A stretch of DNA of 64,000 nucleotides, taken from Labia minor (taxonomy: Eukaryota > Arthropoda > Insecta > Dermaptera > Spongiphoridae). Position 1 is the first letter of the stretch. Each line of letters begins with the position of its first letter. Positions 11,957 through 59,879 of this stretch are shown one piece after another. The stretch lies in contig OY720350.1 of the NCBI GenBank assembly GCA_963082975.1, forward strand, positions 41,691,851 to 41,755,850, written 5' to 3'. Made by a program: the position numbers and the translations under genes. The notes below the pieces were generated by a model. That model searched no databases and had not been told where the DNA came from. It worked only from the letters and a program-made list of their open reading frames with translations.

Positions 11957-12602
11957 TCATTTTTACCGACCGACGATAGTAAGGGAGGTATTGTTTTCAC
12001 ACCAAATTTCACATGTGGAGATTTTTACATATCTCCACAAATCATGCATTTTCTTAACAGAAAAAAGTATTTTTAGCATTATGTCTGTCCATCTGTCCGT
12101 CCATCCGTCCATATAGATGTGTACAGCTTGAACGGCTCAACGGATTTTGATGAAATTTGGTATATTTACTTACTGCATCAGTACGATGAATTGATAAACT
12201 TTTGGTGCAAATCCGGAAACTGGAAGTGGAAGTATTAGCGATCGACGATAGGAAGGGAAGGGTTATTTTCACACCAAATTTCACATTAGGAGATTTTTTA
12301 TATATCACCATGAATCTTTGTATTGTATTGTATTGGTTTTATCCTCGAGGAAAATCATCTTTATTAGTTTTTTCTTAATTTAAAATTATATGACGTCATT
12401 TAGCCATTCATGACGTCACAGCCTGGTCTTACATATATATTATAAATAAAAGAAAATTAAAAATATTTATGTTATATACATATCTGTTGTTTTTTATTAC
12501 ATGAATAGATATATTAAAATTATTTGAAATTGTTTCTGTAGCTGGAAATTAATTTACTTCAAACCGTCGGTCGGTTCGGACCTGGCCACAGGTCAACTTA
12601 TT
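11957..12602 (+). mobile_element. HINE-B copy 1 (Helentron-type non-autonomous element)
   Basis: Reference copy of the family. The 5' end is TTTTTACCGACCGACG, with the subterminal motif ACCGACCGACG at 11965-11975. Its exact inverse CGTCGGTCGGT is at 12565-12575, directly before the hairpin GACCTG-GCCA-CAGGTC (12579-12594), and the element closes in AACTTATT. Internal order: GTATTG, a GAGATTT word, ATGTCTGT (12081) opening a GTCC(A/G)TCC simple repeat, ATTTGGTA (12155), CCGGAAACTGGAAGTGG (12213), and two TGACGTCA palindromes 20 bp apart (12391, 12411). This is the layout known for Helentron-associated elements such as INE-1/DINE-1. It has no coding capacity. Confidence 0.85.
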
Positions 12603-18194: not shown

Positions 18195-18826
18195 ATTTTT
18201 ACCGACCGACGATAGTAAGGGAGGTATTGTTTTCACACCAAATTTCACATGTGGAGATTTTTACATAGCTCCACGAATCATGCATTTTCTTAACAGAAAA
18301 AAGTATTTTTAGCATTATGTCTGTCCATCTGTCCGTCCATCCGTCCATATAGATGTGTACAGCTTGAACGGCTCAACGGATTTTGATGAAATTTGGTATA
18401 TTTACTTACTGCATCAGTACGATGAATTGATAAACTTTTGGAAACTGGAAGTGGAAGTATTAGCGATCGACGATAGGAAGGGAAGGGTTATTTTCACACC
18501 AAATTTCACATTAGGAGATTTTTTATATATCACCATGAATCTTTGTATTGTATTGTATTGGTTTTATCCTCGAGGAAAATCATCTTTATTAGTTTTTTCT
18601 TAATTTAAAATTATATGACGTCATCTAGCCATTCATGACGTCACAGCCTGGTCTTACATATATATTATAAATAAAAGAAAATTAAAAATATTTATGTTAT
18701 ATACATATCTGTTGTTTTTTATTACATTAATAGATATATTAAAATTATTTGAAATTGTTTCTGTAGCTGGAAATTAATTTACTTCAAACCGTCGGTAGAT
18801 TCGGACCTGGCCACAGGTCAACTTAT
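18195..18826 (+). mobile_element. HINE-B copy 2
   Basis: Very close to copy 1 over its whole length, so the two shared a recent master. 5' end TTTTTACCGACCGACG, simple repeat at about 18320-18347, both TGACGTCA sites (18616, 18636), hairpin GACCTGGCCACAGGTC at about 18804-18819, close AACTTATT. The 3' subterminal motif is degraded (gtcggtagat). The 82-codon frame at 18355-18603 is a chance translation of the element. Confidence 0.85.
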
Positions 18827-20739
18827 TTTTAGTATAATAAGATTATTTTTGCCCTTTAGGTCTAGGACTTTAATATTTTTTGAAACCTAAGATTTATTAA
18901 TTCGTAATTTATTTGATGTGTGACTTTTTTAAAAATCCAGAATTTATTTCAGAAACTTATATTAAAATTTACTTTAATTTTCTCAATGGAAAAAATTATA
19001 ATTAGCCTTCTACTTGGAAATTGACTTAATACTACATTCTCATCATTTACGATGTACCCATACTATATATACTGCGAGTTTTGCCAAAATAAATGTTGAT
19101 ACATATAGAATTAATGCTATAAGATAGTTTACCTGATTTATGACATTTCCGGCCTCAAAATAAAGAAAAAAAATAAAAAGAAAAAACTTATACAACTTAA
19201 ATAAAAAGTAGATCATTTCGTAATTTAAAAAACATATAATTGTATTTATATTTGTTTCTTTAACTATTGATTACTAACTATATATATATATATAAAATCA
19301 ATAGATTTAGATACATATTGTACATTTAATTTATATAAAAAAAAATGATTAATTAAAATAAAATTCATATTCATTAAATCTTTCATATATATTAATTAAC
19401 AGGGGGATATTATCATACCTTACTAGTTTCTGGGAGCGCCTGTGAAATGTCAGTTATGCAACCAGAACGGATATATTTCTTATCCATTAATCTTTGTAAA
19501 AGTTTTTGCTAGTAATATAAAAAAAAAATAGAAATATTAAAATAAATCATAAAAGTAAACTTTATGTATATATTGATTATACCAATATTAAATATAAACG
19601 TTGGTGATAAGGCAATCAATAATACAACAGCAAATTTTAACAAGTAGAAATATAAAGGGATATAAATATTATAAACATTAAAATACACTTTTATTTCTAA
19701 TTTATTTATATTATACATTAATTGAAAGCATATGAATTATCTATAAAAGAAAACACACAGACCTATACACACAATTATTATATTACTGGTCTTAAATTAT
19801 ATATGAAAAAATAAATGTTTCCTATTATTAATGTAATTTATGAATATCCCTTATAATCTCAAATTGTTTTTCCTTAGTCATAAATTTTAGATTAATGTTT
19901 AAAATATTATTACAATTTTATTCTTTTAATGTACTATTTCCTTTATTCAGTTTTTATTTCAAAAAAAAAATTATGATTGTTTTTTCTCTATCATTCGAAT
20001 ATAAAAATGAAGCGAAGAAAGTATAATATATTTTTTGTTTAAATGTGCGTGATAATTTAATTTTACAAAAGTATTGTTGAACTTATCATATACGGAAAAT
20101 TGTCATTTTTCACTTGTCTCTTATCAAATAATTCAAATTGTCATATTGACTGCCAAATATAATATCCAGGACAAAATCAATGACCCATATTTTATGTAAC
20201 CCGTAAATATTAATTAAGATATATTCAAATTGATGTCACATATTTTTTCATTTCATTACTTACATCCTTTTTTCACTTTTTTTTTTCGTTAATATTTTAA
20301 AAATTTTTTTCATGAAATCAGTATTAATTTAGTTTTTATTTCTTTATCTATCAATTTCTTCATTTATAAACAATTATTTAATTAACAGTAGAATAATAAG
20401 CATTTTTATAATTATTTCAAAGAAATGATAAAATTATCGTCACTTGAATTGGTAGCATGAAAGAGTACTTGGTTCAATTTTTTACCTAATTGACTCATGT
20501 GATATATATACGTATATTTAATATATATATATATATATGGAAATTAGTGTGCCCGAGCATTGACTCGCGAACTTGTATTTCAGCTGTTTGTGTGCACATT
20601 ACATGTATATATTGTTACTGTAATTGTTTATAATGTTCAATAAAATAGAGAACACAGCCAGCTGTGAATTTTGAGCTGAATTTCAATTTTTTAACTCAAG
20701 AAAGATAAAAAATATGTTACTACCTTCAATAGAAGGTGT
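18827..20739. other. AT-rich spacer
   Basis: Mostly low-complexity, with a TA run at about 20518-20538. A less AT-rich patch at 19400-19480 and another at 20555-20680 have no ORF or known motif; the latter may be an outer part of the mariner relic that follows. Confidence 0.45.
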
Positions 20740-21392: not shown

Positions 21393-21982
21393 ATCTCGCA
21401 AATTTGAATTGGATTAATTAACATAATATATTATATTTAAATTAAATTTAATTAATTATAAATTATAAATTAAAATTAATAAATAATATTTATTAAACCA
21501 GCGCATGTTTGGCTCTTTGTTGATGGCACCACGTCACGTGTTGACGCGTGAGATTTGCAGTGTTAAAAAATTAATTCCGCCGGTACTTTCAGTGATTCAA
21601 TCAAGCTGAAATTCTATATATAGCAGTTTTATACAATTCTTAATCATGTGAAAAATTATCAAGCCTATATCTTTATATTTACGGTCACTTTAGAGGAAAA
21701 AAATCAAAACGTTGTAGGTAATGATCCTCTTCCGGTTGAGCTACATTTCTCAAAAGTTGATAGAAAACTATGAATTTTGAATAATGGCCATGTACCAAAT
21801 TTCATCATTCTAGCTCAAACCGTTTTTGAGTAATCTTGGTTTCATACATACACACAGTCAGACAGATATTTTTCTCAACCTTAGTGAAAATGATTCAGGA
21901 AGCTTCAAAACGTATAAAATCATCAAAATCTCAACATCGAATCAATCATGATCGCAATACTATCTCTGGCGAGATAGTAAAA
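21393..21982 (-). mobile_element. HINE-A copy 1, 3' end truncated
   Basis: Minus-strand copy of family HINE-A (described fully at 44956-45557). The 5' end (right side) has the hairpin ACTATCTC-GCCA-GAGATAGT followed by GTATTGCGATC. The 3' hairpin is missing: the match begins at atctcgca (21393), right after an A/C-rich run. The CA-rich simple repeat is short here (about 21846-21860). Confidence 0.8.
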
Positions 21983-23045: not shown

Positions 23046-24202
23046 AATCTTTATTTATTAACTGAAATAATCGTAATAAATATAAAATACATACATTTGT
23101 CTTTTGTTATAATTTTTACCGACGATAGTAAGGGAGGTATTGTTTTCACACCAAATTTCACATGTGGAGATTTTTACATATCTCCACGAATCATGCATTT
23201 TCTAAACAGAAAATAGTATTTTTAGCATGATGTCTGTCCGTCCGTCTGTCCGTCCGTCTGTCCGTCCGTCCGTATAGATGTGTACAGCCTGAACGGCTCA
23301 ACCGATATTGATGAAATTTGGTAGATTTACTTAATGCATCAGTGGGATGAATTGATCAACTTTTGGTGCAATTCCGGAAACCGGAAGTGGTAGTATTAGC
23401 GATCGACGATAGGAAGGAAAGGGTTATTTTCACACCAAAGGAGATTTTTTTATATATCACCACGAATCATGCACTTTGTATTGGTTTTATCCTCGAGAAA
23501 AATCATATTTATTAGTTTTTTCTTGATTTAAAATTATATGACGTCATCCAGCCATTCATGACGTCACAGCCTGGTCTTGCATATATATTATAAATAAAAT
23601 AAAATTAAAAATGTATATATTTATTATTTATGTATCCATATCTGTTTTTTATTACATTAATAGATATATGAAAATTATTTGAAATTGTTTCTGTAGCTGG
23701 AAATTAATTTATTTCAAACCGTCGGTCGGTTGGGATCTGGCCACAGGTCAACTTATTTTTTCTTTTTCTTTTTTTCTCTCCCTTTAATTTTTCTTTATAA
23801 TTTCTCTATTTTTTGAGTTTTTTTACAGTGAACTCTGGCAGGCGGCAGTTGCCATTTCCAAATTATTTTGTATTTAACTTTTTTTTGTATATATATATAT
23901 ATATATATACTTAAAATTATATACTTAAAATTCGATTTCACAAGCTTGTGTCTGTTTTAATTGCCATACCTGACCCCTTGGTAAGGTTTCTATATAAAAT
24001 AGTTCTTAAATAGGTAACAATAATAAAATACACTATTGCACTTGACCATTTCGAAAGTGAGTAATTTTCCTTACACCCTTCAAATTAACCCCCTCCATGA
24101 CCTGCCCCTTAACTTAAATTAATATTCCTGGGGATCCCGGGAAATGCATTTTTATATTTCCCGATTCTCGGGAACGAAAATACTCCGGGAAAAGTAACAC
24201 TC
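23046..24202. mobile_element. CCCGGG-end element, copy 2, 5'-truncated, hosts HINE-B
   Basis: Matches copy 1 from its aaatctttatttattaactg word (13703 in copy 1) to the right terminus AGTAACACTC at 24202. The left terminus is absent. HINE-B copy 3 splits it at 23113-23756 inside a T-run. Its own tctgttttaattgccatacc (about 23951) is the empty site of the piggyBac insertion in copy 1. Confidence 0.8.
23113..23756 (+). mobile_element. HINE-B copy 3, inserted in CCCGGG-end element
   Basis: Starts TTTTTACCGACG (one CCGA unit of the subterminal motif lost). It has a long GTCCGTCC/GTCTGTCC repeat at 23231-23273, both TGACGTCA sites (23539, 23559), the inverse motif CGTCGGTCGGT, a slightly decayed hairpin ATCTGGCCACAGGTC-like, and AACTTATT. 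Copy 1 of the host element shows an unbroken T-run at this position. Confidence 0.85.
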
Positions 24203-25528: not shown

Positions 25529-25710
25529 GCTGGAGTGTCTCCACTCGACTATCTCGCTATTTGAATTGGATTAAATAACATATATTAATTTAAATTAAAT
25601 TAAATTAATTAAATTATAAATTAAAATTAATAAATAATATTTATTAAACCAGCGCATGTTTGGCTCTTTGTTGATGGCACGTGTTGGCTCGTGAGGTTTG
25701 CAGTGTTAAA

Positions 25711-26331
25711 TAAGTTGACCTGTGGCCAGGTCCGAACCGACCGACAGTTTGAAGTAAATTAATTTCCAGCTACAGAAACAATTTCAAATAATTTTAATAT
25801 ATCTATTAATGTAATAAAAAAAGATATGGATAGAACATAAATATTTTTAATTTTATTTTATTTATAATATATATGCTGTGACGTCATGAATGGCTGGATG
25901 ACGTCATATAATTTTAAATCAAGAAAAAACTAATAAATATGATTTTTCTCGAGGATAAAACCAATACAAAGAGTGTAATATATAAAAAAATCTCCTCATG
26001 TGAAATTTGGTGTGAAAATAACCCTTCCCTTCCTATCGTTGATCGCTAATACTACCACTTCCGGTTCACGGATGTGCACCAAAAGTTGATCAATTCATCC
26101 CACTGATGCATTAAGTAAATATACCAAATTTCATCAAAATCGGTTGAGCCGTTCAGGCTGTACACATCTATACGGACGGACGGACAGACGGACAGACGGA
26201 CGGACAGACATCATGCTAAAAATACTTTTTTCTGTTTAGAAAATGCATGATTCGTGGAGATATGTAAAAATCTCCACATGTGAAATTTGGTGTGAAAACA
26301 ATACCTCCCTTACTATCGTCGGTCGGTAAAA
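25711..26331 (-). mobile_element. HINE-B copy 4, inserted in HINE-A copy 2
   Basis: Reverse orientation. Starts taagttgacctgtggccagg (the 3' end with its hairpin) and ends ggtcggtaaaaa (the 5' end). GGAC-type simple repeat at 26173-26212; both TGACGTCA sites retained (25879, 25899). Other HINE-A copies read gtgttaaaaaattaattctg without interruption at this point, so the insertion went into the A/T homopolymer run. Confidence 0.85.
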
Positions 26332-26609
26332 ACTAATTCTGGTACTTTCAGCCATTCAATCAAGTTGAAATTCTATATATAGCAGTTTTATACAATTATT
26401 AATTATGTGAAAAATTATCAAACATATATCTTTATTTTTACGGTCACTTTAGAAGAAAAAAAAATCAAAAATTTGTAGGTAATGACCCTCTTCCGGTTGA
26501 GCTACATTTCTCAAAAGTTAATAGAAAACTATGAATTTTGAATAACGTTCAAAACGTATAAAAACATCAAAATCTCAACATCGAAAATTTTCGTGATCGC
26601 AATACTATC

Positions 26610-26980
26610 TGTTAAGTTGATGTGTGTATGCTTGACGAATTATTTGAAGAAAGCTGTTGTGATCTGTAATAATGTAATCTGGAGAAATAATGTGAAATGA
26701 ATAAATGTTTATAAATCAAATGCTTGCAAATAATATAATATTTATTGATGTGTTTTAATGAAACATAAACATTTAATGTGTTATGATACACGTTCAAAGA
26801 AATCCGATGATGTGGACTGATGTCCTGCAAAGATGTGATTCAGTGTATGTTCAAAACACGAATGAATGAACATGGCGTCTCGCTGAAGTGGCGTACATCT
26901 CTCTGGCGGCGTCGAAGATGGTGCATTTCAGGGCTTGTAGCACCCCCTATATTAATTCTTCGAAGCTTGGTGCTTCTCCA
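26610..26980 (-). repeat. BEL/Pao 3' LTR
   Basis: On the minus strand it opens TGGAGAAGCACC and closes CTTAACA (TG...CA). It is 371 bp and near-identical to the LTR at 30273-30643. The short frames in each LTR are the same chance reading and are not genes. Confidence 0.93.
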
Positions 26981-27017: not shown

Positions 27018-28121
27018 TTAGTGGACTGTATCTTCTTGGTTGATCGGTAAAGGGCACAGCTTCATCACCGATCGTCTGATGATGTTTCCATTTGGCATGG
27101 ATACATCAACAACTCTGACAATCTTGTCCTTGCCAGGATATAATTTTGCAATTCTTCCAAGTGACCATTTCAGCGGAGGTAAATTGTCTTCTTTCAAAAG
27201 AACCAGAGCTCCAAGTTTGACATTTGCAGATTGATTCGTCCATTTCTGACGAACCTGCAGTTCTGAAATGTACTCAGCAGCCCATCTCCTCCACAATGAC
27301 TGAAACAGCTTGGTGATATATGCATATCTTTTCAAACGATTGTCTTTGATTTCGACAACGTTTGATTCTGGAATATTTGTTGCTGGTTTTCCAATTAAAA
27401 AATGTGCAGGGGTTAATGGATTATGATCTGATGGATCTGATGATAAAGGTGTAAGTGGACGAGAATTTAGAATGGATTCTATCATAGTTAGCACAGTGGT
27501 ATATTCTTCAAAATTCAATTTGGATTCGCCTAGAATTCTATTTAAATGATGTTTTGTTCTTTTTATCATGCTTTCCCAGCAGCCTCCAAAGTGTGGGCTT
27601 TTAGCTGGAATAAAATGCCATTGTATATTTTCTCTCATTAGAGCTTCATATATTTGGCTGTTATTAAGAATTTTGAAAAGTTCCTTTAATTTATGATGAG
27701 CCCCCACAAAATTTGTACCATTGTCTGAATATATGGCTAATGGTCTGCCTCTGCGGGCAATAAAGCGCTTCAATGAATTTAAGAACATATCCGCCGATAG
27801 ATCTGATACCAATTCTAAGTGCACTGCTCGGGTTGATAAACATGTAAAAAGGCAAATGTACGCCTTGACTATTCGAGGCCGTCTACTGTTACCTTCCTTC
27901 AAAAGTACGGGGCCTGCATAATCAACCCCTACATTGTGAAAAGGCATATACTGTTCTACCCGTGCAGCTGGTAAATTCCCCATTTGATAATTAATTGATT
28001 TTGGTTTGGCTCGAAAACATTTAATGCAGTTGTGAATTATTTCCCTAGCCAGATTTCTGCCCCCAATAGGCCAATACTTTTGTCTAATGGAATATAATAA
28101 TTGTTGAGGTCCACAATGCAA
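27018..28121 (-). CDS. BEL/Pao integrase region (fossil part)
   Basis: The 367-residue frame has three recognisable parts. An N-terminal zinc-binding H...C..C segment (HCGPQQLL... to CIKCFRAKP) lies at about residues 2-37. A central integrase core has VGVDYAGP, then IYSDNGTNFVGA and then CWESMIKR, supplying the D, D and E of the DDE triad at about residues 65-190. A C-terminal DUF5641-type tail (PLKWSLGRIAKLYPG... to RRSVMKLCPLP) covers the last 80 or so residues. This order is specific to the BEL/Pao group. In the family, integrase inserts the reverse-transcribed copy into the host genome. Here it is one part of an incomplete element. Confidence 0.92.
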   Translation of the reverse strand: MHCGPQQLLYSIRQKYWPIGGRNLAREIIHNCIKCFRAKPKSINYQMGNLPAARVEQYMPFHNVGVDYAGPVLLKEGNSRRPRIVKAYICLFTCLSTRAVHLELVSDLSADMFLNSLKRFIARRGRPLAIYSDNGTNFVGAHHKLKELFKILNNSQIYEALMRENIQWHFIPAKSPHFGGCWESMIKRTKHHLNRILGESKLNFEEYTTVLTMIESILNSRPLTPLSSDPSDHNPLTPAHFLIGKPATNIPESNVVEIKDNRLKRYAYITKLFQSLWRRWAAEYISELQVRQKWTNQSANVKLGALVLLKEDNLPPLKWSLGRIAKLYPGKDKIVRVVDVSMPNGNIIRRSVMKLCPLPINQEDTVH

Positions 28122-28202
28122 TAGTCGTATATGCTCCTACACGACCTTTTTAAATCAAATTCAAGTTCAGTTAATCTTAATAAATTCACTTTGAAATTGT
28201 TG

Positions 28203-29999
28203 TTAAGTGAATTTATTGCCTGCTACGATCCAACCGAATTTACTTTTTTGTAATATGGGACGGCCCTTTCCTAAGAATATTTGCCCTGCACACAACGAAT
28301 CATAAAATATGTCTGCACCTATTAACATATCAATATCCTCGCTTTCATTAAATGTTTCATCTGCAAGTTCAATATCATCTGGAATATTCAAATGATTGAT
28401 ATTAAATGAATTAGTCGGTAATTTGTCAGTGATATGGTCCATAACAAGAAACTGTGAATTTCGCTTATACTGTGATTTCAACGAGCATATCTCTAAATTC
28501 GTTTTATGTTTAATTTCATGTTGTATATTACCTATACCTGCAATTGTATGTTCTATTTTGAATTTTTTTGATTTTAATTTATCGCACAATTTTTTTGTAA
28601 TTAAATTGCTTTGCGATCCATTGTCTAAAAGCGCTCTACATATGTGATAATTGCCATGAATGTCCTTTACCTTTACTTTAATTGTGGATAATAATGTTTT
28701 ATTTGATTGTATATCGGAACATATTCCTACCAAACCGTGGGTCGTGCTATTTGAATCGCTATTATTATCATTTTCTTTGATTTCTATGTCATCTGTTGGC
28801 TGCATTTTTGATTGTATTTCAACGGGGTCTAAATGAAGTAATGTATTATGGGATTTGTTACACTTAGTGCATTTTGATGATTTACATGACGAGGCGTAAT
28901 GGGAGGGTTTGAGACAATTTAAACATAATTTTAAATTCCGAATGTTGTTAATTCTTTCCCGAGTGTTTAATTTTAAAAATTTTGAACATTTGTATATTGC
29001 GTGTGGCTCTTTACATAAGGCACACGATTTTGCAGTTGATATATGAGTATATCCTTTGTTTAATTTTGGTGATATTGGCCTAGTGGGTTTCGAATCTCCA
29101 ACTCGTATTAAAATAGCAGATTTTTCCCTAATAAATTTTAATAATGTTTCGAAAGAAATATTATCGTCCCTGGTTGTCTGTATTTCCCAATCCCTTCTGG
29201 TTTTACTATCAAATTTTGATGAAATTAAATAAACTAATAATGTATCCCAGGAATCAGTTGGTTCACCTAATGCTTTTAATGCTCTTAAATTTTTGTTTAT
29301 ATCATCATGTAACATCTGTAGATGGCTCCCCGATTCTCTTTGTAGCGAGGGCAGTTCAAATATAGACTTTACATGATTGTGAATTAATAATTTTTTATTT
29401 TCGAATCTTTCATTAAGAAGATCCCATGCTATTTGATAATTTTGAGCCGTGACCTTCATTGATTCCAAAATTTCTAAAGCCCGCCCCTTTAGAGTTGATT
29501 TCAAATAATATAATTTTTGAACCTCAGATAATTGATCATTTTGATCAATTAGAGCTGAGAATGCATCTTTGAATTCGAGCCAATTGTTAAAATTCCCATC
29601 GAAATTAGGTAGTTCTATGGTAGGTAATTGTATGAATTGATTTTTAGAGGACGATGATGCTAAGCTAATTACATCAGCGTCTGGCCTAACGACAGACGCT
29701 CTCTCAAATTCATGAACCGCTTTTTTAATTTTGGATTTTAATGCGAAATAACGATTTTCAAAAGTAGATCGTTCCTCAATTTCTATTTCGAAAGATTCCG
29801 CGTTATCAATACATTTCAGTTCAATTTGATCCTGAATTGTATTGAATTTTTCGAATTTTGATTCAAAATTTTCTAAACGATCCACTGATTGAATAATTGA
29901 TTCTTGGTCGAAAGTTTGTATGGACTCAACATAATTTTTGAATTTAGTCAATTGTGCTTTTATTAATTTTCTTGAATTTTTTAAATGCTGCAATTCCAT
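28203..29999 (-). CDS. BEL/Pao Gag and aspartic protease region (fossil part)
   Basis: The 598-residue frame begins with a coiled-coil-like N-terminus. Then comes the DUF1759 capsid-type domain (LPTIELPNFDGNFNNWLEFK onward, about residues 125-290) and cysteine-rich zinc knuckles (CALCKEPHAIYKC, CLNCLKPSHYASSCKSSKC, about 330-395). An aspartic protease domain follows, with ALLDNGSQSNLI as its active-site motif (about 450-460). In the family, Gag packages the RNA and the protease matures the polyprotein. The ATG at 29999 follows a leader of about 270 bp after the 5' LTR. Confidence 0.92.
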   Translation of the reverse strand: MELQHLKNSRKLIKAQLTKFKNYVESIQTFDQESIIQSVDRLENFESKFEKFNTIQDQIELKCIDNAESFEIEIEERSTFENRYFALKSKIKKAVHEFERASVVRPDADVISLASSSSKNQFIQLPTIELPNFDGNFNNWLEFKDAFSALIDQNDQLSEVQKLYYLKSTLKGRALEILESMKVTAQNYQIAWDLLNERFENKKLLIHNHVKSIFELPSLQRESGSHLQMLHDDINKNLRALKALGEPTDSWDTLLVYLISSKFDSKTRRDWEIQTTRDDNISFETLLKFIREKSAILIRVGDSKPTRPISPKLNKGYTHISTAKSCALCKEPHAIYKCSKFLKLNTRERINNIRNLKLCLNCLKPSHYASSCKSSKCTKCNKSHNTLLHLDPVEIQSKMQPTDDIEIKENDNNSDSNSTTHGLVGICSDIQSNKTLLSTIKVKVKDIHGNYHICRALLDNGSQSNLITKKLCDKLKSKKFKIEHTIAGIGNIQHEIKHKTNLEICSLKSQYKRNSQFLVMDHITDKLPTNSFNINHLNIPDDIELADETFNESEDIDMLIGADIFYDSLCAGQIFLGKGRPILQKSKFGWIVAGNKFT

Positions 30000-30272
30000 A
30001 TTGAATAAAGGCTACACCAATTATGCAACTATAATGAATTATATGAATTAATGAAAGGAATGAAAAGGACTTACCGCACAAATTAATCCCAGCAACAAAT
30101 ATTAATTGTTTGTTAAATCAAGTTGCTCAATTTCTCCAGATACAAATACTGTTTTCGGATTTCTTGGCTTCTCAAATATGATTCGTCTCAATATGTTGAA
30201 TTACTTGCTGTATCTAGCTCGATTGAACTAAATATTGAATATACTGGATGAATCCGGCTCAATTGGACCAAA

Positions 30273-34015: not shown

Positions 34016-34048
34016 AGAATAAATACGCTATATTATTTCTTTACCATA

Positions 34049-34704
34049 ATAAGTTGACCTGTGGCCAGGTCCGAACCGACCGACGGTTTGAAATAAATTA
34101 ATTTCCAGCTACAGAAACAATTTCAAATAATTTTAATATATTTATTAATGTAATAAAAAACAGATATGGATATAACATAAATATTTTTAATTTTATTTTA
34201 TTTATAATATATAGCTGAAGTAGCCGGCGTTACCCGAGGCTGTGACGTCATGAAGGGCTGGGTGACGTCATATAATTTTAAATTAAGAAAAACATAATGA
34301 AGATGATTTTTCCCGAGGATAAAACCAATACATTCGTGGTGATATGTAAAAAAAATCTCCTTATGTGAAATTTGGTGCGAAAATAACCCTTCCCTTCTTA
34401 TCGTCGATCGCTAATACTACCACTTCCGGTTTCCGGATTTGCACCAAAAGTTGATCAATTCATCCCACTGATGCATTAAGTAAATATACCAAATTTCATC
34501 AAAATCCGTTAAGCCGTTCAGGCTGTACACATCTATACGGACGGACAGACGGACGGACGGACGGACAGACGGACGGACAGACATCATGCTAAAAATACTT
34601 TTTTCTGTTAAGAAAATGCATGATTCGTGGAGATATGTAAAAATCTCCACATGTGAAATTTGGTGTGAAAACAATACCTCCCTTACTATCGTCGGTCGGT
34701 AAAA
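34049..34704 (-). mobile_element. HINE-B copy 5
   Basis: Reverse orientation with both ends intact: taagttgacctgtggccagg at left, ggtcggtaaaaa at right. The GGAC simple repeat is at 34536-34580 and the TGACGTCA pair at 34243 and 34263. It carries about 25 extra bases (gaagtagccggcgttacccg...) just before the first TGACGTCA that other copies lack. These may be ancestral family sequence or a small insertion. The overlapping open frames here are chance readings of the element. Confidence 0.85.
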
Positions 34705-34838
34705 AGGTAAAAGCATCGTTAAAACATGCCGAAATTAAATTTTGTAACAAGCAAGTTCGGTTGAAGGAAATAGTGAAGGCAATATTAAACATCAATCATA
34801 TGACAGTTCGGAATCTTTTGAAAAGAGCAGGCAGCTAA
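34705..34838 (+). pseudogene. Possible coding relic with helix-turn-helix-like end
   Basis: Directly after HINE-B copy 5 an open frame reads KVKASLKHAEIKFCNKQVRL and then KEIVKAILNINHMTVRNLLK RAGS before a stop. The charged, helix-forming composition and the I-(x)6-TVRNLLKR ending resemble a transposase N-terminal helix-turn-helix, but I cannot assign a family. The start codon of the longer frame lies in HINE-B and is not meaningful. Confidence 0.3.
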
Positions 34839-38406: not shown

Positions 38407-38545
38407 TCTACTTATACTGATTGAAACAAAATGGATGAAAACCTTTTACATACAGACTTTCAACCAAATACTACACTCGGGGGTACAGGGGGCGGAGCCC
38501 CCGTCTAGGTGTGAAGAGCGCCTGGAAGGCGCTCTGATCAGCTAG
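38407..38545 (+). mobile_element. Candidate short canonical Helitron (or its 3' end)
   Basis: The right side has the classic Helitron 3' layout: an 8-bp perfect hairpin AGAGCGCC-TGGAA-GGCGCTCT (38517-38537), a short spacer, then CTAG (38542-38545) followed by T. A second GC hairpin GGGGGC-GGA-GCCCCC lies just upstream (about 38491-38505), also followed by CTAG. A possible 5' end TCTACTTATACTG (38407), preceded by A, fits the A|TC...CTRR|T rule but is weaker. The GC-rich 80 bp stand out sharply from the flanks. Confidence 0.5.
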
Positions 38546-38832: not shown

Positions 38833-38983
38833 TTTTACTTTCCCGCATACTTCGTATAAGGGAAGTATTGGAATCGTCAAAAATTTAGACTTCGAGATTT
38901 CGATAAATCTTGACGTTTTAGACCTCCCTGAGTCGGAAAATACCATTTTTCGAATTATGTCTGTGTGTGTGTATGTATGTATG

Positions 38984-39014
<31 letters not shown>

Positions 39015-39854
39015 TGTCTTAAGCAAATTTACTCAAAAACTAATCAAGCTAGGACTTCGAAATTTGGTACACCGATATTATTCACAGTTTGTAGATTTCT
39101 ATCAAAATTTCGTCAAAATCGGTTAACCGGAAGTGGTACTTTACCTACACTGGTTGCGTTTACCTTTCAAGTAAAGTACCAGTTTGCTTCGAGATATTTG
39201 CTTCATATTTTGTATATAGATTTAAAAATATGAAAAAAATTCAGATACCAAATTTCATCATGATCTGACTACCGGAAGTGACATTTTACCTATACAAGTA
39301 GCGTTTCTTTTTTACCGACCGACGATAGTAAGGGAGGTATTGTTTTCACACCAAATTTCACCTATGGATATTTTTAGGTACATATCTCCACGAATCATGC
39401 ATTTTCTTAACAGAAAAAAGTATTTTTAGCATGATGTCTGTCCGTACGTCCGTATAGATGTATACAGCCTGAACGGCTAAACGGATTTTGATGAAATTTG
39501 GTATATTTACTTAATACATCAGTAGGATGAATTGATCAACTTTTGGTGCAAATCCGGAAACCGGAAGTGCTAGTATTGCCGATCGAAGAGAGGAAGTGAA
39601 GGGTTATTTTCATATCAAATTTCACGTGAGGACATATCTCCATGTGTTATGCACTTTGTATTGGTTTTATCCTCGAGAAAAATCATCTTCATTAGTTTTT
39701 TCTTAATTTAAAATTATATGACTTCACCCAGCACTTCATGACGTCACAGCCAGCCCTTATATATTATAAATAAAATAAAATTAAAAATATTTATATTATA
39801 TCCATATCTGTTTTTTTTACATTTAAAATATCAGTTAACCGGAAGTAGCACTTT

Positions 39855-39889
<35 letters not shown>

Positions 39890-40035
39890 GTTACCAAATA
39901 TCAAATTTGACACCAATAAACTAATACGAACTGGCTCTTTATCAATACCAAGTTTACACATTCTAAATATTCATTCACAACTCTTTATACCTATTTATAT
40001 GCGGGAAAGTCTAGGGGAGGACACTCCCGCTTATT
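38833..40035 (+). mobile_element. HINE-C (third Helentron-type family), interrupted by HINE-B
   Basis: The 5' end is TTTTTACTTTCCCGCATAC. Subterminal motif ACTTTCCCGCATA (38837-38849) recurs as its exact inverse TATGCGGGAAAGT at 39998-40010, just before the hairpin GGGAG-GACA-CTCCC (40015-40028), and the element closes in CTTATT. Internal order: GTATTGGAATCG, CGAGATTTCGAT, ATGTCTGT (38957) opening a GTAT repeat to about 39013, ATTTGGTAC (39062), CCGGAAGTGG (39127). HINE-B copy 6 lies at 39308-39827. The part after it (ggttaaccggaagtagcact and a TA run at 39859-39887) is again HINE-C. No coding capacity; the 100-codon frame at 39888-40190 spans its 3' end by chance. Confidence 0.85.
39308..39827 (+). 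mobile_element. HINE-B copy 6, 3'-truncated, nested in HINE-C
   Basis: Intact 5' end TTTTTACCGACCGACG in a T-run of HINE-C, a short GTCC repeat (about 39436-39453), and only one intact TGACGTCA (about 39738). It stops after ctgttttttttacatt and lacks the 3' motif and hairpin. Either an incomplete insertion or a later deletion at its 3' boundary. Confidence 0.8.
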
Positions 40036-40964: not shown

Positions 40965-41564
40965 GCTGGAGTGTCTCCACTCGACTATCTCGCAATTTGA
41001 ATTGGATTAAATAACATAATATATTATATTTAAATTAAATTTAATTAATTATAAATTATAAATTAAAATTAATGAATAATATTAAATTAAACCAGCGCAT
41101 GTTTGGCTTTTTGTTGATGGCACCACGTCACGTGTTGGCACGTGAGATTTGCAGTGTTAGAAAATTAATTCTGGTATTTTCAGCGATTCAATCAAGCTAA
41201 AATTCGATATATAGCAGTTTTATACAATTTTTAATCATGTGAAAAACGATCAAACATATATCTTTATTTTTACGGTCACTTTAGATGAAAAATAATCAAA
41301 ACGTTGTAGGTAATGACCCTCTTCCGGTTGAGCTACATTTCTCAAAAGTTGATAGAAAACTACGAATTTTGAATAAGGCCTACCTGCCAAATTTTATGAT
41401 TCTGGCTCAAACCGTTTTTGCGTAATCTTGTCTACATACATACATACAGACACACACACACAGACACAGAAAATTTTTTCAACCTTAGTGAAAATGATTC
41501 AGGAACCTTCAAAACGTATAAAAACATCAAAATCTCAACATCGAAAATTTGGCGAGATAGTAAA
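40965..41564 (-). mobile_element. HINE-A copy 3
   Basis: Minus strand; intact 3' hairpin side (gctggagtgtctccactcg), CA/GACA repeat at about 41440-41470, and the 5' end reduced to ggcgagatagtaaaa because about 20 bases of the 5' hairpin arm are missing. Confidence 0.85.
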
Positions 41565-42547: not shown

Positions 42548-43112
42548 TTTTTACTATCTCGCCAGAGATAGTATTGCGATCACGAAAATTTTCAAAATTT
42601 TGATGTTATTATACGTTTTGAGTCATTTTCACTAACAATAAGGTTGAGAAAAATGTCTCTGTGTGTGTGTATGTAGACAAGATTACGCAACGGTTAGAGC
42701 TAGAATAATGTAATTTGGTACACGGGCATTATTCAAAATTCGGAGTTTTCTATCAGCTTTTAAGAAATGTAGATCATCCGGAAGAGGACCATTACCTACC
42801 ATGTTTTCATTTTTTTCCTATAAACTAACGGCAAAAGTAATGATATATGTCTGATAGTTTTTCCACAAGATTAAAAATGGTATAAAACTGCCATATATAG
42901 AATTTCAGCTTGATTGAATCGCTGAAAGTATCGGAATTAATTTTTTAAAACTACAAATCACGCGCCAGCCATCAACAAAGAGCCAAACACGCGCTGGTTT
43001 AATAAATATTATTTATTTATTTTAATTTATAATTAATTATAATTAATTTAAATATAATATATGTTAATTAATCCAATTCAAATTTGCGAGATAGTCGAGT
43101 GGAGACACACCA
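42548..43112 (+). mobile_element. HINE-A copy 4
   Basis: Plus strand. 5' TTTTTACTATCTCGCCAGAG (hairpin with gagatagt), subterminal motif ACTATCTCGC at 42553-42562 and inverse GCGAGATAGT at 43086-43095. The simple repeat is only a short GT run at 42660-42670. The 3' hairpin is decayed (gagtggagacacac). Confidence 0.85.
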
Positions 43113-43468: not shown

Positions 43469-43894
43469 CTGGAGTGTCTTCACTCGACTATCTTGAATTG
43501 GTTTAAATAACACATATTATATTTAAATTAAATTAATTATAAATTAAAAATAATATTTATTAACCAGCGCATGTTTGACACCACGCCACCTGCTGGCTCT
43601 TGATGGGAGTCAACGTGTTAAAAAATTAATTCCGGTATTTTCAGCAATTCAATCAAACTGAAATTCTATATATAGCAGTTTTATACAATTTATAATCATA
43701 TGATAAACTATCAATCATATATCTTTATTTTTACGGTCAGTTTAGAGAAAAAAATTGAAAACGTGGTAGGTAATGGTCAATTTTCTCAACCTTAGTGAAA
43801 ATGAATCAATGTCCTTCAAAACGTATAAAAACATCAAAATCTCGACATCGAAAATTTTCGTGATCGAAATACCTTCTCTGGCGAGATAGTAAAA
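43469..43894 (-). mobile_element. HINE-A copy 5, internally deleted
   Basis: Both ends are present (ctggagtgtcttcactcgac; tctggcgagatagtaaaa) but the central part including the CA repeat and the ATTTGGTA/CCGGAAG words is missing. Confidence 0.8.
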
Positions 43895-44955: not shown

Positions 44956-45557
44956 GCTGGAGTGTCTCCACTCGACTATCTCGCAATTTGAATTGGATTA
45001 AATAACATAATATATTATATTTAAATTAAATTTAATTAATTATAAATTATAAATAATAAATATTAAACCAGCGCATGTTTGGCTTTTTGTTGATGGCACC
45101 ACGTCACGTGTTGGCGCGTGAGATTTGCAGTGTTAAAAAATTAATTCTGGTACTTTCAGCAATTCAATCAAGCTGAAATTCTATATATAGCAGTTTTATA
45201 CAATGATTAATCATGTGAAAAATTATCAAACATATATCTTTATTTTTACGGTCACTTTAGAGGAAAAAAAATCAAAACGTTGTAGGTAATGACCCTCTTC
45301 CGGTTGAGCTACATTTCTCAAAAGTTGAGAGAAAACTATGAATTTTGAATAATGCTCATGTACCAAATTGCATCATTCTAGCTCAAACCGTTTTTGCGTA
45401 ATCTTGCCTACATACATACACACACACACACACACACAGACATTTTTCTCAACCTTAGTGAAAATGATTCAGGAACCTTCAAAACTTTTAAAAACATCAA
45501 AATCTCAACATCGAAAATTTTCGTGATCGCAATACTATCTCTGGCGAGATAGTAAAA
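44956..45557 (-). mobile_element. HINE-A copy 6 (reference copy)
   Basis: Full-length on the minus strand, about 600 bp. Read 5' to 3': TTTTTACTATCTCGCCAGAG with the hairpin ACTATCTC-GCCA-GAGATAGT; GTATTGCGATCACG; GAGATTTTGATG; ATGTCTGT into a GT repeat (45412-45442); ATTTGGTACATG-like word; CTCAACCGGAAGAGGGTCATT; an AT-rich 3' part with an ACGTGACGTGG word. Then the subterminal motif inverse GCGAGATAGT (44975-44984 on the plus strand as ACTATCTCGC), hairpin GAGTG-GAGA-CACTC (44960-44973) and AGCTTATT. No coding capacity. Confidence 0.88.
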
Positions 45558-45827
45558 ACTACCAGGTTTAATTTACAATATGCCTTCAGGGCCTATAAAG
45601 TCCACCAAAGTGAGGTAGAGGTGTTATGATCAGTAAAACGGAATCTCTAACCAGAGGGTACGCGGTCTGAAATCTAAAAAAAAATATTATTATAAAATTT
45701 ATTTTTATTTTTTACAGTAACTTAAATATATTGTAATTTAATAATTATTATATTGTAATTAATAAATTATTATCTGTCTGCAACCACCATAATAAAATAT
45801 TAATATAAAATATTATTATAATATAAA
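45558..45827. other. Low-copy spacer
   Basis: Contains a less AT-rich patch at 45560-45670 with no ORF; otherwise AT-rich. Confidence 0.4.
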
Positions 45828-46486
45828 CAGTGGCGTACCTAGAACTTTTGCCGCCCGGGGCGATCTCCAGTTTGCCACCCTTTCTATTATAAGTCAATCA
45901 AATAGTGGTTTTTATAAATTAATACACATATATATAAATAATTATTAAGTTATTTAATCAATATTAATTAATACACAGTGTGTAAATTTTTTTACACATA
46001 TTTGTAAGCACTCGTAAACATATTTAAATAATATTTACTCTTCTAGCTCTCAAAATTTATATTATTTGTAATTTCTTGTTCTATTGACAATATTGCAAGA
46101 TTTTGTAGTCTTAATTGACTCATTGTAGATCGAAGATAATTTTACCGAACAAAATCTTAAAGATGCGTTTACGAATTCAACGAATTTTAATGAATACAAT
46201 AAAATAAAATTATTATCCTGTTCTTGGAATTAGAATTCAAAATTTACACTAAAATGCATTTATATACACCGAGGAATATTATTCGAAATCATATAGCTGA
46301 TCATAATTTATATAAATCAAATAGTAAACTTATAATAATCATTTATTATTCAAGAAAGAAAAAAAAATAAATATGAAATGAATAAGTTGCTTTTTACAAC
46401 TATAACGAAATATAAAAAATGCCGCCCCAAGATAAGTGCCGCCCGGTGCGGACCGCACCCACCGCCCCCCCTTAGGTACGCCACTG
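45828..46486 (+). mobile_element. hAT-like MITE D, tandem copy 1
   Basis: Terminal repeats CAGTGGCGTACCTAGAAC and, in reverse complement, CAGTGGCGTACCTAAGGG, with GCCGCCC words just inside each end. Such CAGTGGCG ends are typical of hAT elements. Length 659 bp. No transposase; the 64-codon frame near the right end is a chance reading across the element border. Confidence 0.85.
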
Positions 46487-46638
46487 ACTTAAACCAAAAC
46501 CCTGAAGAGGATTCTGAACGACTGAAACATCGACTAATGTTGGAAAAAGAATTTAAAAAGTTTTATTTCTAAATCTTCTGAATGACTTCTAATTATGTTT
46601 ATAGATACAATTTTTATAATTATATATTATAATATAAA
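46487..46638 (+). other. Spacer of the 811-bp tandem unit
   Basis: 152 bp between copies, repeated at 47298-47449. It reads open as DLNQNPEEDSERLKHRLMLE followed by KEFKKFYF and a stop. The charged peptide looks more like real coding sequence than the flanks do. It may be an exon or transposon fragment that was duplicated with the array. No donor or acceptor is convincing. Confidence 0.35.
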
Positions 46639-47297
46639 CAGTGGCGTACCTAGAACTTTTGCCGCCCGGGGCGATCTCCAGTTTGCCACCCTTTCTATTA
46701 TAAGTCAATCAAATAGTGGTTTTTATAAATTAATACACATATATATAAATAATTATTAAGTTATTTAATCAATATTAATTAATACACAGTGTGTAAATTT
46801 TTTTACACATATTTGTAAGCACTCGTAAACATATTTAAATAATATTTACTCTTCTAGCTCTCAAAATTTATATTATTTGTAATTTCTTGTTCTATTGACA
46901 ATATTGCAAGATTTTGTAGTCTTAATTGACTCATTGTAGATCGAAGATAATTTTACCGAACAAAATCTTAAAGATGCGTTTACGAATTCAACGAATTTTA
47001 ATGAATACAATAAAATAAAATTATTATCCTGTTCTTGGAATTAGAATTCAAAATTTACACTAAAATGCATTTATATACACCGAGGAATATTATTCGAAAT
47101 CATATAGCTGATCATAATTTATATAAATCAAATAGTAAACTTATAATAATCATTTATTATTCAAGAAAGAAAAAAAAATAAATATGAAATGAATAAGTTG
47201 CTTTTTACAACTATAACGAAATATAAAAAATGCCGCCCCAAGATAAGTGCCGCCCGGTGCGGACCGCACCCACCGCCCCCCCTTAGGTACGCCACTG
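46639..47297 (+). mobile_element. hAT-like MITE D, tandem copy 2
   Basis: Appears base-for-base the same as copy 1 at an offset of exactly 811 bp, including the spacer. Either a very recent tandem duplication or an assembly duplication. Confidence 0.85.
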
Positions 47298-47449
47298 ACT
47301 TAAACCAAAACCCTGAAGAGGATTCTGAACGACTGAAACATCGACTAATGTTGGAAAAAGAATTTAAAAAGTTTTATTTCTAAATCTTCTGAATGACTTC
47401 TAATTATGTTTATAGATACAATTTTTATAATTATATATTATAATATAAA

Positions 47450-48041
47450 CAGTGGCGTACCTAGAACTTTTGCCGCCCGGGGCGATCTCCAGTTTGCCAC
47501 CCTTTCTATTATAAGTCAATCAAATAGTGGTTTTTATAAATTAATACACATAAATAAATTATTAAGTTATTTAATCAATATTAATTAATACACAGTGTGT
47601 AAATTTTTTTACACATATTTGTATGCACTCGTAAACATATTTATATAATATTTACTCTTCTAGCTTTCATACTAGAAAAATCATGTAAAAATTTATATTA
47701 TTTGTAATTTCTTGTTCTATTGACAATATTGCAAGATTGTGCGTTTACGAATTCAACAAATTTTAATGAATACAATAAAATAAAATTATTATCCTGTTCT
47801 TGGAATTAGAATTCAAAATTTACACTAAAATGCATTTATATACACCGAGGAATAATATTCGAAATCATATAGTTGATCATAATTTATATAAATCAAATAG
47901 TAAACTTATAATAATCATAATAATCATTTATTATTCAAGAAAAAAAAAATAAATATGAAATGAATAAGTTGCTTTTTACAACTATAACGAAATATAAAAA
48001 ATGCCGCCCCAAGATAAGTGCCGCCCTTAGGTACGCCACTG
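47450..48041 (+). mobile_element. hAT-like MITE D, tandem copy 3 (diverged, with target duplication)
   Basis: Starts at the next 811-bp step but is 592 bp, with several indels relative to copies 1 and 2. TATAAA flanks both sides (47444-47449, 48042-48047), so the duplication is 6 bp or an imperfect 8-bp NTATAAAC. This is the only copy whose right flank matches its left, so it keeps the original insertion boundary. Confidence 0.85.
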
Positions 48042-52660: not shown

Positions 52661-53846
52661 CTAGAGTGTCTCCACTCGACTATCTCGCAATTTGAATTGG
52701 ATTAAATAACATATATTAATTTAAATTAAATTAAATTAATTAAATTATAAATTAAAATTAATAAATAATATTTATTAAACCAGCACGTGTTTGGCTCTTG
52801 GTTGATGGACCCCGTCACGTGCTGATTCAATCAAGCTGAAATTAAATATATAGCAGTTTTATAAAATTTATAATCATATGAAAAACTATCAAGCATAGAT
52901 CTTTATTTTTACGGTCAGTTTAGAGGAAAAATAAGCTGGAGTGTCTCCACTCGACTATCTCGCAATTTGAATTGGATTAAATAACATAATATATTATATT
53001 TAAATTAAATTTAATTAATTATAAATTATAAATAATAAATATTAAACCAGCGCATGTTTGGTTTTTTATTGATGGCACCATGGCACGTGTTGGCGCGTGA
53101 GATTTGCAGTGTTAAAAAATTAATTCTGGTACTTTCAGCGATTCAATCAAGCTGAAATTCTATATATAGTAGTTTTATACAATTATTAATCATGTGAAAA
53201 ATTATCAAACATATATCTTTATTTTTACGGTCACTTTAGAGGAAAAAAAATCAAAACGTTGTAAGTAATGACCCTCTTCCGGTTGAGCTACATTTCTCAA
53301 AAGTTGATAGAAAACTATGAATTTTGAATAATGCTCATGTACCAAATTGCATCATTCTAGCTCAAACCGTTTTTGCGTAATCTTGCCTACATACATACAC
53401 ACACACATACACACACACACATACACACACACACACATACACACACACACAGACATTTTTCTCAACCTTAGTGAAGATGATTCAGGAACCTTCAAAACGT
53501 ATAAAAACATCAAAATCTCAACATCGAAAATTTTCGTGATCGCAATACTATCTCTGGCGAGATAGTAATAATCAAAACGTTTTAGGAAATGGTCCTCTTC
53601 CGGATGAACTACATTTCTCAGAAGTTGATAGAAAACTACGAATTTTGATTATACTAAATTTAATTATTCTAGCTTAAGCGGTTTTTGAGTGATCTTCTCT
53701 ACATACATACACCCACACACACAGAGAGACTTTTTTCTCATCCTTAGTGAAAATGACTCAGGGACCTTCAAAACGCATAAAAATATCAAAATCTTGACAT
53801 TGAAAATTTTCTTGATCGCAATACTATCGCTGGCGAGATAGTAAAA
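52661..53846 (-). mobile_element. HINE-A copy 7, split by HINE-A copy 8
   Basis: The 3' half lies at 52661-52930 (ctagagtgtctccactcgac to cagtttagaggaaaa) and the 5' half at about 53570-53846 (aatcaaaacgttttaggaaa to ggcgagatagtaaaa). The junction falls exactly where other copies read gaggaaaaaaatcaaaacg, so the two halves form one element. Confidence 0.88.
52933..53568 (-). mobile_element. HINE-A copy 8, nested in copy 7
   Basis: Complete element from aagctggagtgtctccactc to tggcgagatagtaa in the same orientation as its host. The CA repeat is expanded (53388-53453), making a chance 72-codon His/Thr-rich frame. Its neighbours on both sides are HINE-A sequence, so both termini are defined exactly except for the A/T run. 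Confidence 0.88.
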
Positions 53847-57604: not shown

Positions 57605-58184
57605 ATCTCGTAAGAGATAGTATTGCGATCACGAAAATTTTCGATGTTGAGATTTTGATGTTTTTATACGTTTTGAAGGTTACTGAATCATTTTCACTAA
57701 GGATGAGAAAAATGTCTGTGTGTGTGTATGTATGTAACCAAGATTACGCAAAAACGATTTGAGCTAGAATGATGAAATTTGGTACATGGGCATTATTTAA
57801 AATCCATAGTTTTCTATAAACTTTTGAGAAATGTAGCTCAACCGGAAGAGGGTCATTACTTACAACGTTTTGATTTTTTTTCTTCTAAAGTGACCGTAAA
57901 AATAAAGATATATGTTTGATAATTTTTCACATGATTAATAATTGTATAAAACTGCTATATATAGAATTTCAGCTTGATTGATTCGCTGAAATTACCAGAA
58001 TTAATTTTTTAACACTGCAAATCTCACGCGCCAACACGTGACGTGGTGCCATCAACAAAAAGCCAAACATGCGCTGGTTTAATATTTATTATTTATTAAT
58101 TTTAATTTATAATTTAATTTAAATTAATATATGTTATTTAATCCAATTCAAATGTGCGAAATAGTCGAGTGGAGACACTCCAGC
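57605..58184 (+). mobile_element. HINE-A copy 10
   Basis: Plus-strand copy. 5' hairpin slightly decayed (atctcgtaagagatag), ATGTCTGT at 57712 into GT/GTAT repeat, ATTTGGTAC at 57777, CCGGAAGAGG at 57842. The 3' inverse motif is one base off (gcgaaatagt); the hairpin gagtg-gaga-cactc and cagctt close it. This copy aligns particularly clearly with HINE-C over its first 250 bp. Confidence 0.88.
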
Positions 58185-59290: not shown

Positions 59291-59879
59291 GCTGGAGTGT
59301 CTCCACTCGACTATCTCGCAATTTGAATTGAATTAAATAACATAGTATATTATATTTAAATTAAACTTAATTAATTATAAATTCTAAATAATAAATATTA
59401 AACCAACGCATGTTTGGCTTTATGTTGATGGCACCACGTCACGTGTTGGCGCGTGAGATTTGCAGTGTTAAAAAATTAATTCCGGTATTTTCAGCGATTC
59501 AATCAAGCTGAAATTCTATATATAGAAGATTTATACAATTATTAATCATGTGAAAAATTATCAAACATATATCTTTATTTTTACGGTCACTTTAGAGGGA
59601 AAAAATCAAAACGTTGTAAGTAATGACTCTCTTCCGGTTGAGCTACATTTCTCAAAAGTTGATAGAAAACTATGGATTTTGAATAATGCCCATGTACCAA
59701 ATTTCATCATTCTAGCTTAAACCGTTTTTGCGTAATCTTGGTTACATACATACACACATACAAACACACACACACAGACATTTTTCTCAACCTTAGTGAA
59801 AATGATTCAGGAACCTTCAAAACCTATAAAAACAGCAAAATCTCAACATAGAAAATTTTCGTCATACGAGATAGTAAAA
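59291..59879 (-). mobile_element. HINE-A copy 11
   Basis: Minus strand, nearly full-length; the 5' hairpin is broken down to atacgagatagtaaaa. CA repeat at about 59748-59780. Confidence 0.86.

Follow-up and report, generated by a model that had tools for sequence, protein, structure and literature searches.

Three Helentron-like repeat families of Labia minor with different ends and a common internal skeleton

Non-coding elements of the Helentron-associated type (HINE/DINE-1) have been described from several animals, and the partial accounts drawn on here portray a recurring layout. DINE-1/INE-1 of Drosophila carries subterminal inverted repeats (subTIRs), a partial inverted repeat beside the 5′ subTIR, a microsatellite in its left block, a conserved core of ~90 bp and a 3′ stem-loop, and inserts at T-rich targets; its subTIRs vary, with five different ones among 11 species and, within D. 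willistoni, three subtypes that differ in them, and the possibility of a functional core has already been argued (Yang and Barbash, 2008; PMC2374699, in the portions used here). The HINE/Helentron elements of mite, Culex and Drosophila likewise have subTIRs, a 3′ palindrome and a T-rich site, leave their target unmodified and, in the case of the HINEs, are non-coding; for several of the HINE families, a corresponding Helentron was identified (Thomas et al., 2014; PMC4067079, in part). In the Pacific oyster, several related Cg_HINEs exist side by side, each with an element-specific subTIR, an inner repeat, a stem-loop and a microsatellite, and some with two arrays (PMC7492417, in part). The Hel-2 Helitrons of Lepidoptera have a 5′ inverted repeat, subterminal inverted repeats, a 3′ hairpin and a (CTGT)n microsatellite, but differ in their TC and CTAG ends and their A/T target (PMC4344730, in part). 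Helitron2_Cv of Calliphora is a fly family, which we compare by description only (PMC3630058, in part).

Here we describe three repeat families, A, B and C, from a window of Labia minor DNA, by which we mean the whole 64 kb stretch that was analyzed. The three families fit the Helentron-associated elements: the layout of a non-coding element with subTIRs, a 3′ hairpin and a T-rich site is supported, and the features listed above for DINE-1 have their counterparts, putative ones in the case of the partial inverted repeat, in a likeness at the level of description. Unlike DINE-1 with its GTCY microsatellite, A and C have GT/GTAT repeats, and C is a composite (PMC2374699, in part). Unlike the HINEs of Thomas et al. 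(2014), they have no partner in the stretches read, and the 10 bp subTIR of A falls short of the 11 bp family rule given there (PMC4067079, in part). Where the oyster elements have central satellite arrays, C instead has the left part of another family embedded (PMC7492417, in part). The inference of a conserved core with variable ends is not new, having been published for Drosophila DINE-1 (PMC2374699, in part). Our additions are a new set of HINE families from another genome, the composite of C and B, and two leads concerning the core.

We consider it about 85% probable that A, B and C are non-coding HINEs of one lineage, which are transposed by a rolling-circle mechanism with a Rep/helicase supplied in trans, whose ends change together, and of which C arose by insertion of a B copy and loss of sequence. 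Three related families with different subTIR pairs in one genome would allow the joint change of ends to be studied side by side.

The three families and the composite element C

The genome searched comprises 604 Mb in 71 contigs, and the window corresponds to positions 41691851-41755850. Comparison of the window with itself revealed ~10 copies of A, six of B (one of them within C) and a single C (Table 1). A first look at the genome yielded 3221, 7197 and 1795 matches for A, B and C, which are candidates and not copy numbers; 40 were scored for each family. The scored copies are 97-100% identical to the A query (44956..45553) and, for the C composite, 94-98% identical. As predicted, all three are repeat families, with multiple copies in the window and/or the genome. 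Their consensus sequences were derived from eight copies of A (seven from the window and one from locus L008), 37 of B and 21 of C, after exclusion of repeated places and of copies with less than 85% of the query length. On average, copies diverge from their own consensus by 1.2% in C, 2.6% in B and 6.1% in A, figures in which young, similar copies of B and C are over-represented because most are the best matches to the window copies. The window has five stop-to-stop frames of at least 120 aa, all of them outside A, B and C.

Table 1. Copies of A, B and C and other mobile-element features of the window (positions in the window).
Feature	Positions	Strand	Basis or remark
C element (chimeric HINE), whole	38837..40035	+	repeated in genome
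C left module: subTIR, inner repeat, microsatellite, core	38837..39313	+	
B copy without 3′ end, within C	39314..39824 (end approximate)	+	consensus identity to B
C right module: 3′ subTIR TATGCGGGAAAGT, hairpin, CTTATT	39825..40035	+	
B element	11965..12602	+	
B copy	18200..18827	+	
B copy	23118..23757	+	shortened 5′ subTIR
B copy	25709..26332	-	nested in A copy (empty-site test)
B copy	34048..34705	-	
A element	57605..58184	+	degenerate ends
A copy	44956..45553	-	intact ends
A copy	21393..21978	-	
A copy	25529..26614	-	interrupted by B copy 25709-26332
A copy	40965..41554	-	
A copy	42553..43112	+	diverged (82%)
A copy	43469..43890	-	internal deletion
A copy	52935..53566	-	nested in another A copy
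A copy, outer	52661..53842	-	interrupted by A copy 52935..53566
A copy	59291..59865	-	
Canonical-type Helitron, 5′ end	11359	-	
Canonical-type Helitron, 3′ end	38480-38545	+	
BEL/Pao-like retroelement pieces: integrase with DUF5641; DUF1759 gag-like frame	27018-30011	-	
Direct repeats of ~180-300 bp, spacing ~0.8 kb	45799-47918		outside A, B and C copies

At its positions 475-985, the C consensus consists of a B element minus its last ~100 bp, i.e. the 3′ subTIR and hairpin, neither of which is present in the embedded piece. Aligned with the B consensus over 507 positions, the piece shows 94.5% identity and several indels in addition. Among the 28 C loci read, which represent 26 distinct places when the window is counted, the best match spans the embedded B completely at 27 and for the most part at the remaining one (L028); as the query contained B, C copies without it may have been missed. 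The outer ends are well preserved, with an exact 5′ motif at 27/28 and an exact 3′ motif at 26/28 loci, or at 25 and 24 of the 26 distinct places, respectively. C is therefore a chimera that has a B copy without its 3′ end at its center and that has spread as a composite, a make-up that the original prediction had missed. Since the embedded B differs by 5.5% from the B consensus, while C copies diverge by a mean of 1.2% from theirs, the join appears to predate the spread of C.

In the left module of C, the words ATGTCTGT, ATTTGGTA and CCGGAA, discussed below, are located at 38957, 39062 and 39127; the same words within 39314-39824 are B's own, as they belong to the embedded copy. In B, too, the initial part recurs downstream of the core (positions 3-88 versus 275-361, 87% identity), so that left ends seem to have been stacked on two occasions. 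For tandem Helitrons, inner copies truncated at the 3′ end have been described (PMC7492417, in part). With its single 3′ end and the internal left ends of B, C constitutes a natural test of which 5′ end is accepted.

Individual C copies show other arrangements. At L016, the 5′ end is doubled, with two subTIRs in a row, and at L018 and L025, C copies are found directly behind an A-type 3′ hairpin, within the T-run of that hairpin.

Ends, internal skeleton and descent

The consensus subTIRs measure 10 bp in A, 11 bp in B and 13 bp in C, against ~11-15 bp expected of HINE/DINE-1-like elements, and each is perfectly complementary to its own 3′ copy; both arms are exact in 26/37 copies of B and 19/21 of C. 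All three consensuses have the end layout that the original prediction described, with the inverted 3′ motif, a hairpin-like stretch and CTTATT, but the A copy at 57605-58184 is degenerate and lacks both ACTATCTCGC and CTTATT, which are supplied by other A copies. The ends had further been called unrelated, which fails for A and C: their left-end motifs, ACTATCTCGC and ACTTTCCCGC, agree at 8/10 positions, their last 36 bp are 83% identical (E 4e-5), and both 3′ ends contain GGAG...CTCC. In view of the shared motif positions and of GGAG...CTCC, the ends of A and C have diverged and have not been replaced. What had been worded as repeated replacement is thereby reduced to a single case, B, which has ACCGACCGACG at its left end and the complement of ACCGACCGACG at its right.

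Beside the 5′ subTIR, each family has an inverted second piece ending in ATTG (GAGATAGTATTG in A, GGGAAGTATTG in C and GGGAGGTATTG in B). It pairs with the 5′ end fully in A, with a bulge in C and at 5/7 positions in B; the corresponding folding z-scores against shuffles are -5.5, -1.7 and 0.02, so that B folds no better than its shuffles. In its inner repeat, AAGGGAGGTATTG, B comes close to C (AAGGGAAGTATTG), whereas its subTIR reads ACCGACCGACG. The inner repeat of B may thus keep an older end sequence, and the two subTIRs of B would then have changed together. At the 3′ end, the folding z-scores are modest in A (-1.5) and B (-1.9) and reach -3.4 in C, where the best fold pairs the subTIR with a far arm and does not form the short hairpin.

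Inside these ends, the words GTATTG, GAGATTT, ATGTCTGT, ATTTGGTA and CCGGAA have a common order and matching spacing in the three consensuses, as had been predicted. In A/B/C, they are found at positions 19/24/29, 48/54/58, 111/117/121, 186/191/223 and 251/249/288, and the distance from ATTTGGTA to CCGGAA amounts to 65, 58 and 65 bp. As to the additional words attributed to both A and C, CCCTGAGTC is present in C and CCTGAATC in the A consensus, and the A copy at 57605 has neither. Columns that are identical in all three families make up 5/24 of the end segment, 7/11 of the inner repeat plus ATTG, 31/87 of the part before the microsatellite, 48/106 of the core and 36/153 of the part after the microsatellite, all of these fractions being inflated by the alignment itself. 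The claim that the families differ more at their ends than inside is borne out by the 5′ end (5/24) in comparison with the core (48/106).

For all homology comparisons, C was taken outside the embedded B piece (referred to as C5). A and C are 71% identical over 157 bp of the core (E 4e-18) and 69% identical over 134 bp upstream of it (E 2e-9), and none of 500 shuffles reached the A-C5 score with microsatellites masked. This pattern bears on the best-surviving alternative, according to which unrelated ends with separate histories were joined to a common core cassette by recombination. We regard such an exchange of modules as unlikely, although a serious contender. Joins do occur, given that C carries a piece of B, and A and C are alike over their left ~390 bp and their last ~50 bp, not in the middle. 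However, the ends of A and C are related as well, in their motifs and their last 36 bp, and B is collinear with a joint profile of A and C5 from profile position 21 to 299 (~250 bp), from slightly inside the end across the core, with no evident border.

Taken pairwise, the relationship of B to the others is borderline. The A-B score was reached by 2/500 shuffles, with the best alignment in AT-rich tail sequence outside the core, and the B-C5 score by 1/500, with the alignment within the core. Such values could be accommodated by convergence, in which a common host factor or base composition, and not descent, would have kept the short words, but we deem this very improbable in light of the A+C5 profile. 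With its microsatellite columns removed, the profile scores 37.3 bits against B without the GTCC run (33.8 bits with it), whereas dinucleotide shuffles of B without this run gave any match in 157/1000 cases and 5.0 bits at most; the match is also collinear over ~250 bp. The profile recovers all six B copies of the window, at 17.1 to 37.6 bits, and gives nothing above 2.9 bits in the window outside A, B and C. The prediction that the consensuses align above chance thus withstood this test, and the resemblance of A, B and C is homology within one lineage. A scan for further core-bearing families in ~360 kb, comprising loci and window, returned ten unassigned matches, none of them convincing as a further family.

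The insertion sites are T-rich. At least two T are present on each side of all 30 B copies in which both end motifs are exact (37 examined), and T-runs flank 14 of 15 scorable C copies (21 examined) and both scorable A copies (8 examined). At L058, two head-to-tail B copies have one T-run in common. Two nested insertions, B in A (25709-26332) and A in A (52935-53566), were compared with uninterrupted A; beyond the T-run, neither has a target duplication, and single-base differences are seen beside it. A T-rich site without target duplication is in line with the account of Helentron insertion given by Thomas et al. (2014; PMC4067079, in part). That the families are ordinary MITEs or canonical Helitrons is hardly credible: they are short, non-coding and abundant, and TC/CTAG Helitrons do occur in the same genome, but no target was duplicated at the two nested sites, and the ends, set in T-runs, have neither TC nor CTRR, starting instead with AC after the T-run and finishing with CTTATT.

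If A, B and C are HINEs of one lineage, as we prefer, their transposition might proceed as follows. Proteins acting in trans would nick next to the 5′ subTIR, at the T/AC border, and one strand would be peeled off up to a stop at the 3′ subTIR plus hairpin. As the two arms match perfectly within each consensus, the 5′ and 3′ subTIRs must have changed together between families; the arms may pair in a single-stranded or circular intermediate, where repair would make them alike. The internal left module would change more slowly than the ends. In the case of C, a B copy would have inserted into, or become joined into, the left module of C, with loss of the stretch that contained the B 3′ end; with one 3′ end remaining, the composite could then have moved as a unit.

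Rep/helicase genes and the core outside the three families

A search of the genome with PF14214 yielded 104 Rep stretches, some of them in open frames of 1651-2181 aa. Loci L084-L087 bear the Helentron signature RGSPHIH, and L087 has both Rep and PIF1 domains; the remaining Rep loci with a readable motif have the Helitron form RGLPH. For the L084-L087 family, the 5′ end, TTTTTAGTTATACGAGGGTTACC, was set at the point of divergence of two copies. It is found at eight places at 100%, with the ninth match at 73%, although the independent support for it is less than eightfold since several copies have the same upstream flank. Given the eight identical 5′ ends, this family has perhaps been active recently. 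Its 5′ motif is unlike those of A, B and C, and it does not contain their core, which is accordingly not needed by every Helentron in the genome. In 30 Rep loci with ~1.5 kb flanks and eight stretches beside Rep genes, a set that comprises some of the 104 Rep stretches and in most cases stops short of the element ends, no Rep element with the ends of A, B or C was found. The autonomous element that had been anticipated is thus present insofar as the genome has a Rep/helicase Helentron, but this has other ends and no core, and the stretches read contain no partner of A, B or C.

The Helentron-type Rep/PIF1 family encompasses L084-L087, L089, L090, L118 and L119. L118 and L119 look like deletion derivatives, and L119 has an inverted-repeat unit with arms of ~158 bp at the 3′ side of the Helentron. 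Two decayed Rep loci contain pieces of B. At L083, a B 3′ end and, after it, a C-type hairpin preceded by another motif lie upstream of Rep and may represent a further HINE family, and L088 holds an AT-rich B fragment (74%).

The genome also harbors a canonical-type non-autonomous Helitron family with a 5′ TC, a hairpin and a 3′ CTAG (L093, L088 and L003); the sole copy read at both ends, L093, is located between the nucleotides A and T. A profile built from four 5′ ends of this family matches the B consensus at its core (positions 163-206, ~44 bp) with 12.3 bits, above 1000/1000 shuffles (maximum 8.2), in a test that was not blind, as the family was chosen after the likeness had been seen by eye. 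Across the 37 B copies, all of which are matched, the profile scores 7.1 to 18.7 bits, with two copies at 7.1, below the shuffle maximum. It gives 0.3 bits at the matching place in A, within the range of the shuffles, and no match in C5. Pairwise comparisons with this Helitron family, for which two copies were tried, were discarded: L093 against A beats 1000/1000 shuffles, but in AT-rich sequence; against B, the scores are equaled by 30 and 23 of 1000 shuffles; and C5 is at chance.

Words resembling ACCGGAAGTG (at most one mismatch) occur 16 times in the window versus 0.77 expected, and all 16 lie inside A, B or C; they do not represent independent events, being mostly copies of one ancestral site. 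We take ACCGGAAGTG to be the ETS consensus. It is conceivable, but in our estimation distinctly unlikely, that the core (ACGGCT..ACCGATTTTGATGAAATTTGGTA ... ACCGGAAGTG) is a cis-module that outlives the turnover of the ends and is common to Helentron-type and canonical Helitron families of the same genome. Such a module might serve as an ETS-like host-factor site or as a Rep-loading site, and C-like elements might gain by stacking cores behind one pair of ends. The core-like stretch of the canonical-type family, if confirmed, would point to a function in cis beyond that of the ends.

Matches to GATGAAATTTGGTA-gap-CCGGAA in IMG/VR (4 stretches) and GTDB (17 stretches) were rejected, as they look like chance prokaryotic or phage matches; none of these 21 loci has a microsatellite or another word of the elements in the preceding 110 bp. 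A full-text literature search for the core words returned only unrelated titles, which is not proof that the core is unpublished.

The domain matches of the window include a MADF domain and a DDE_Tnp_1_7 transposase fragment, the latter presumably of the piggyBac type; along with the BEL/Pao-like frames, they are suggestive of an insect. Rfam and tRNA scans of the window found nothing.
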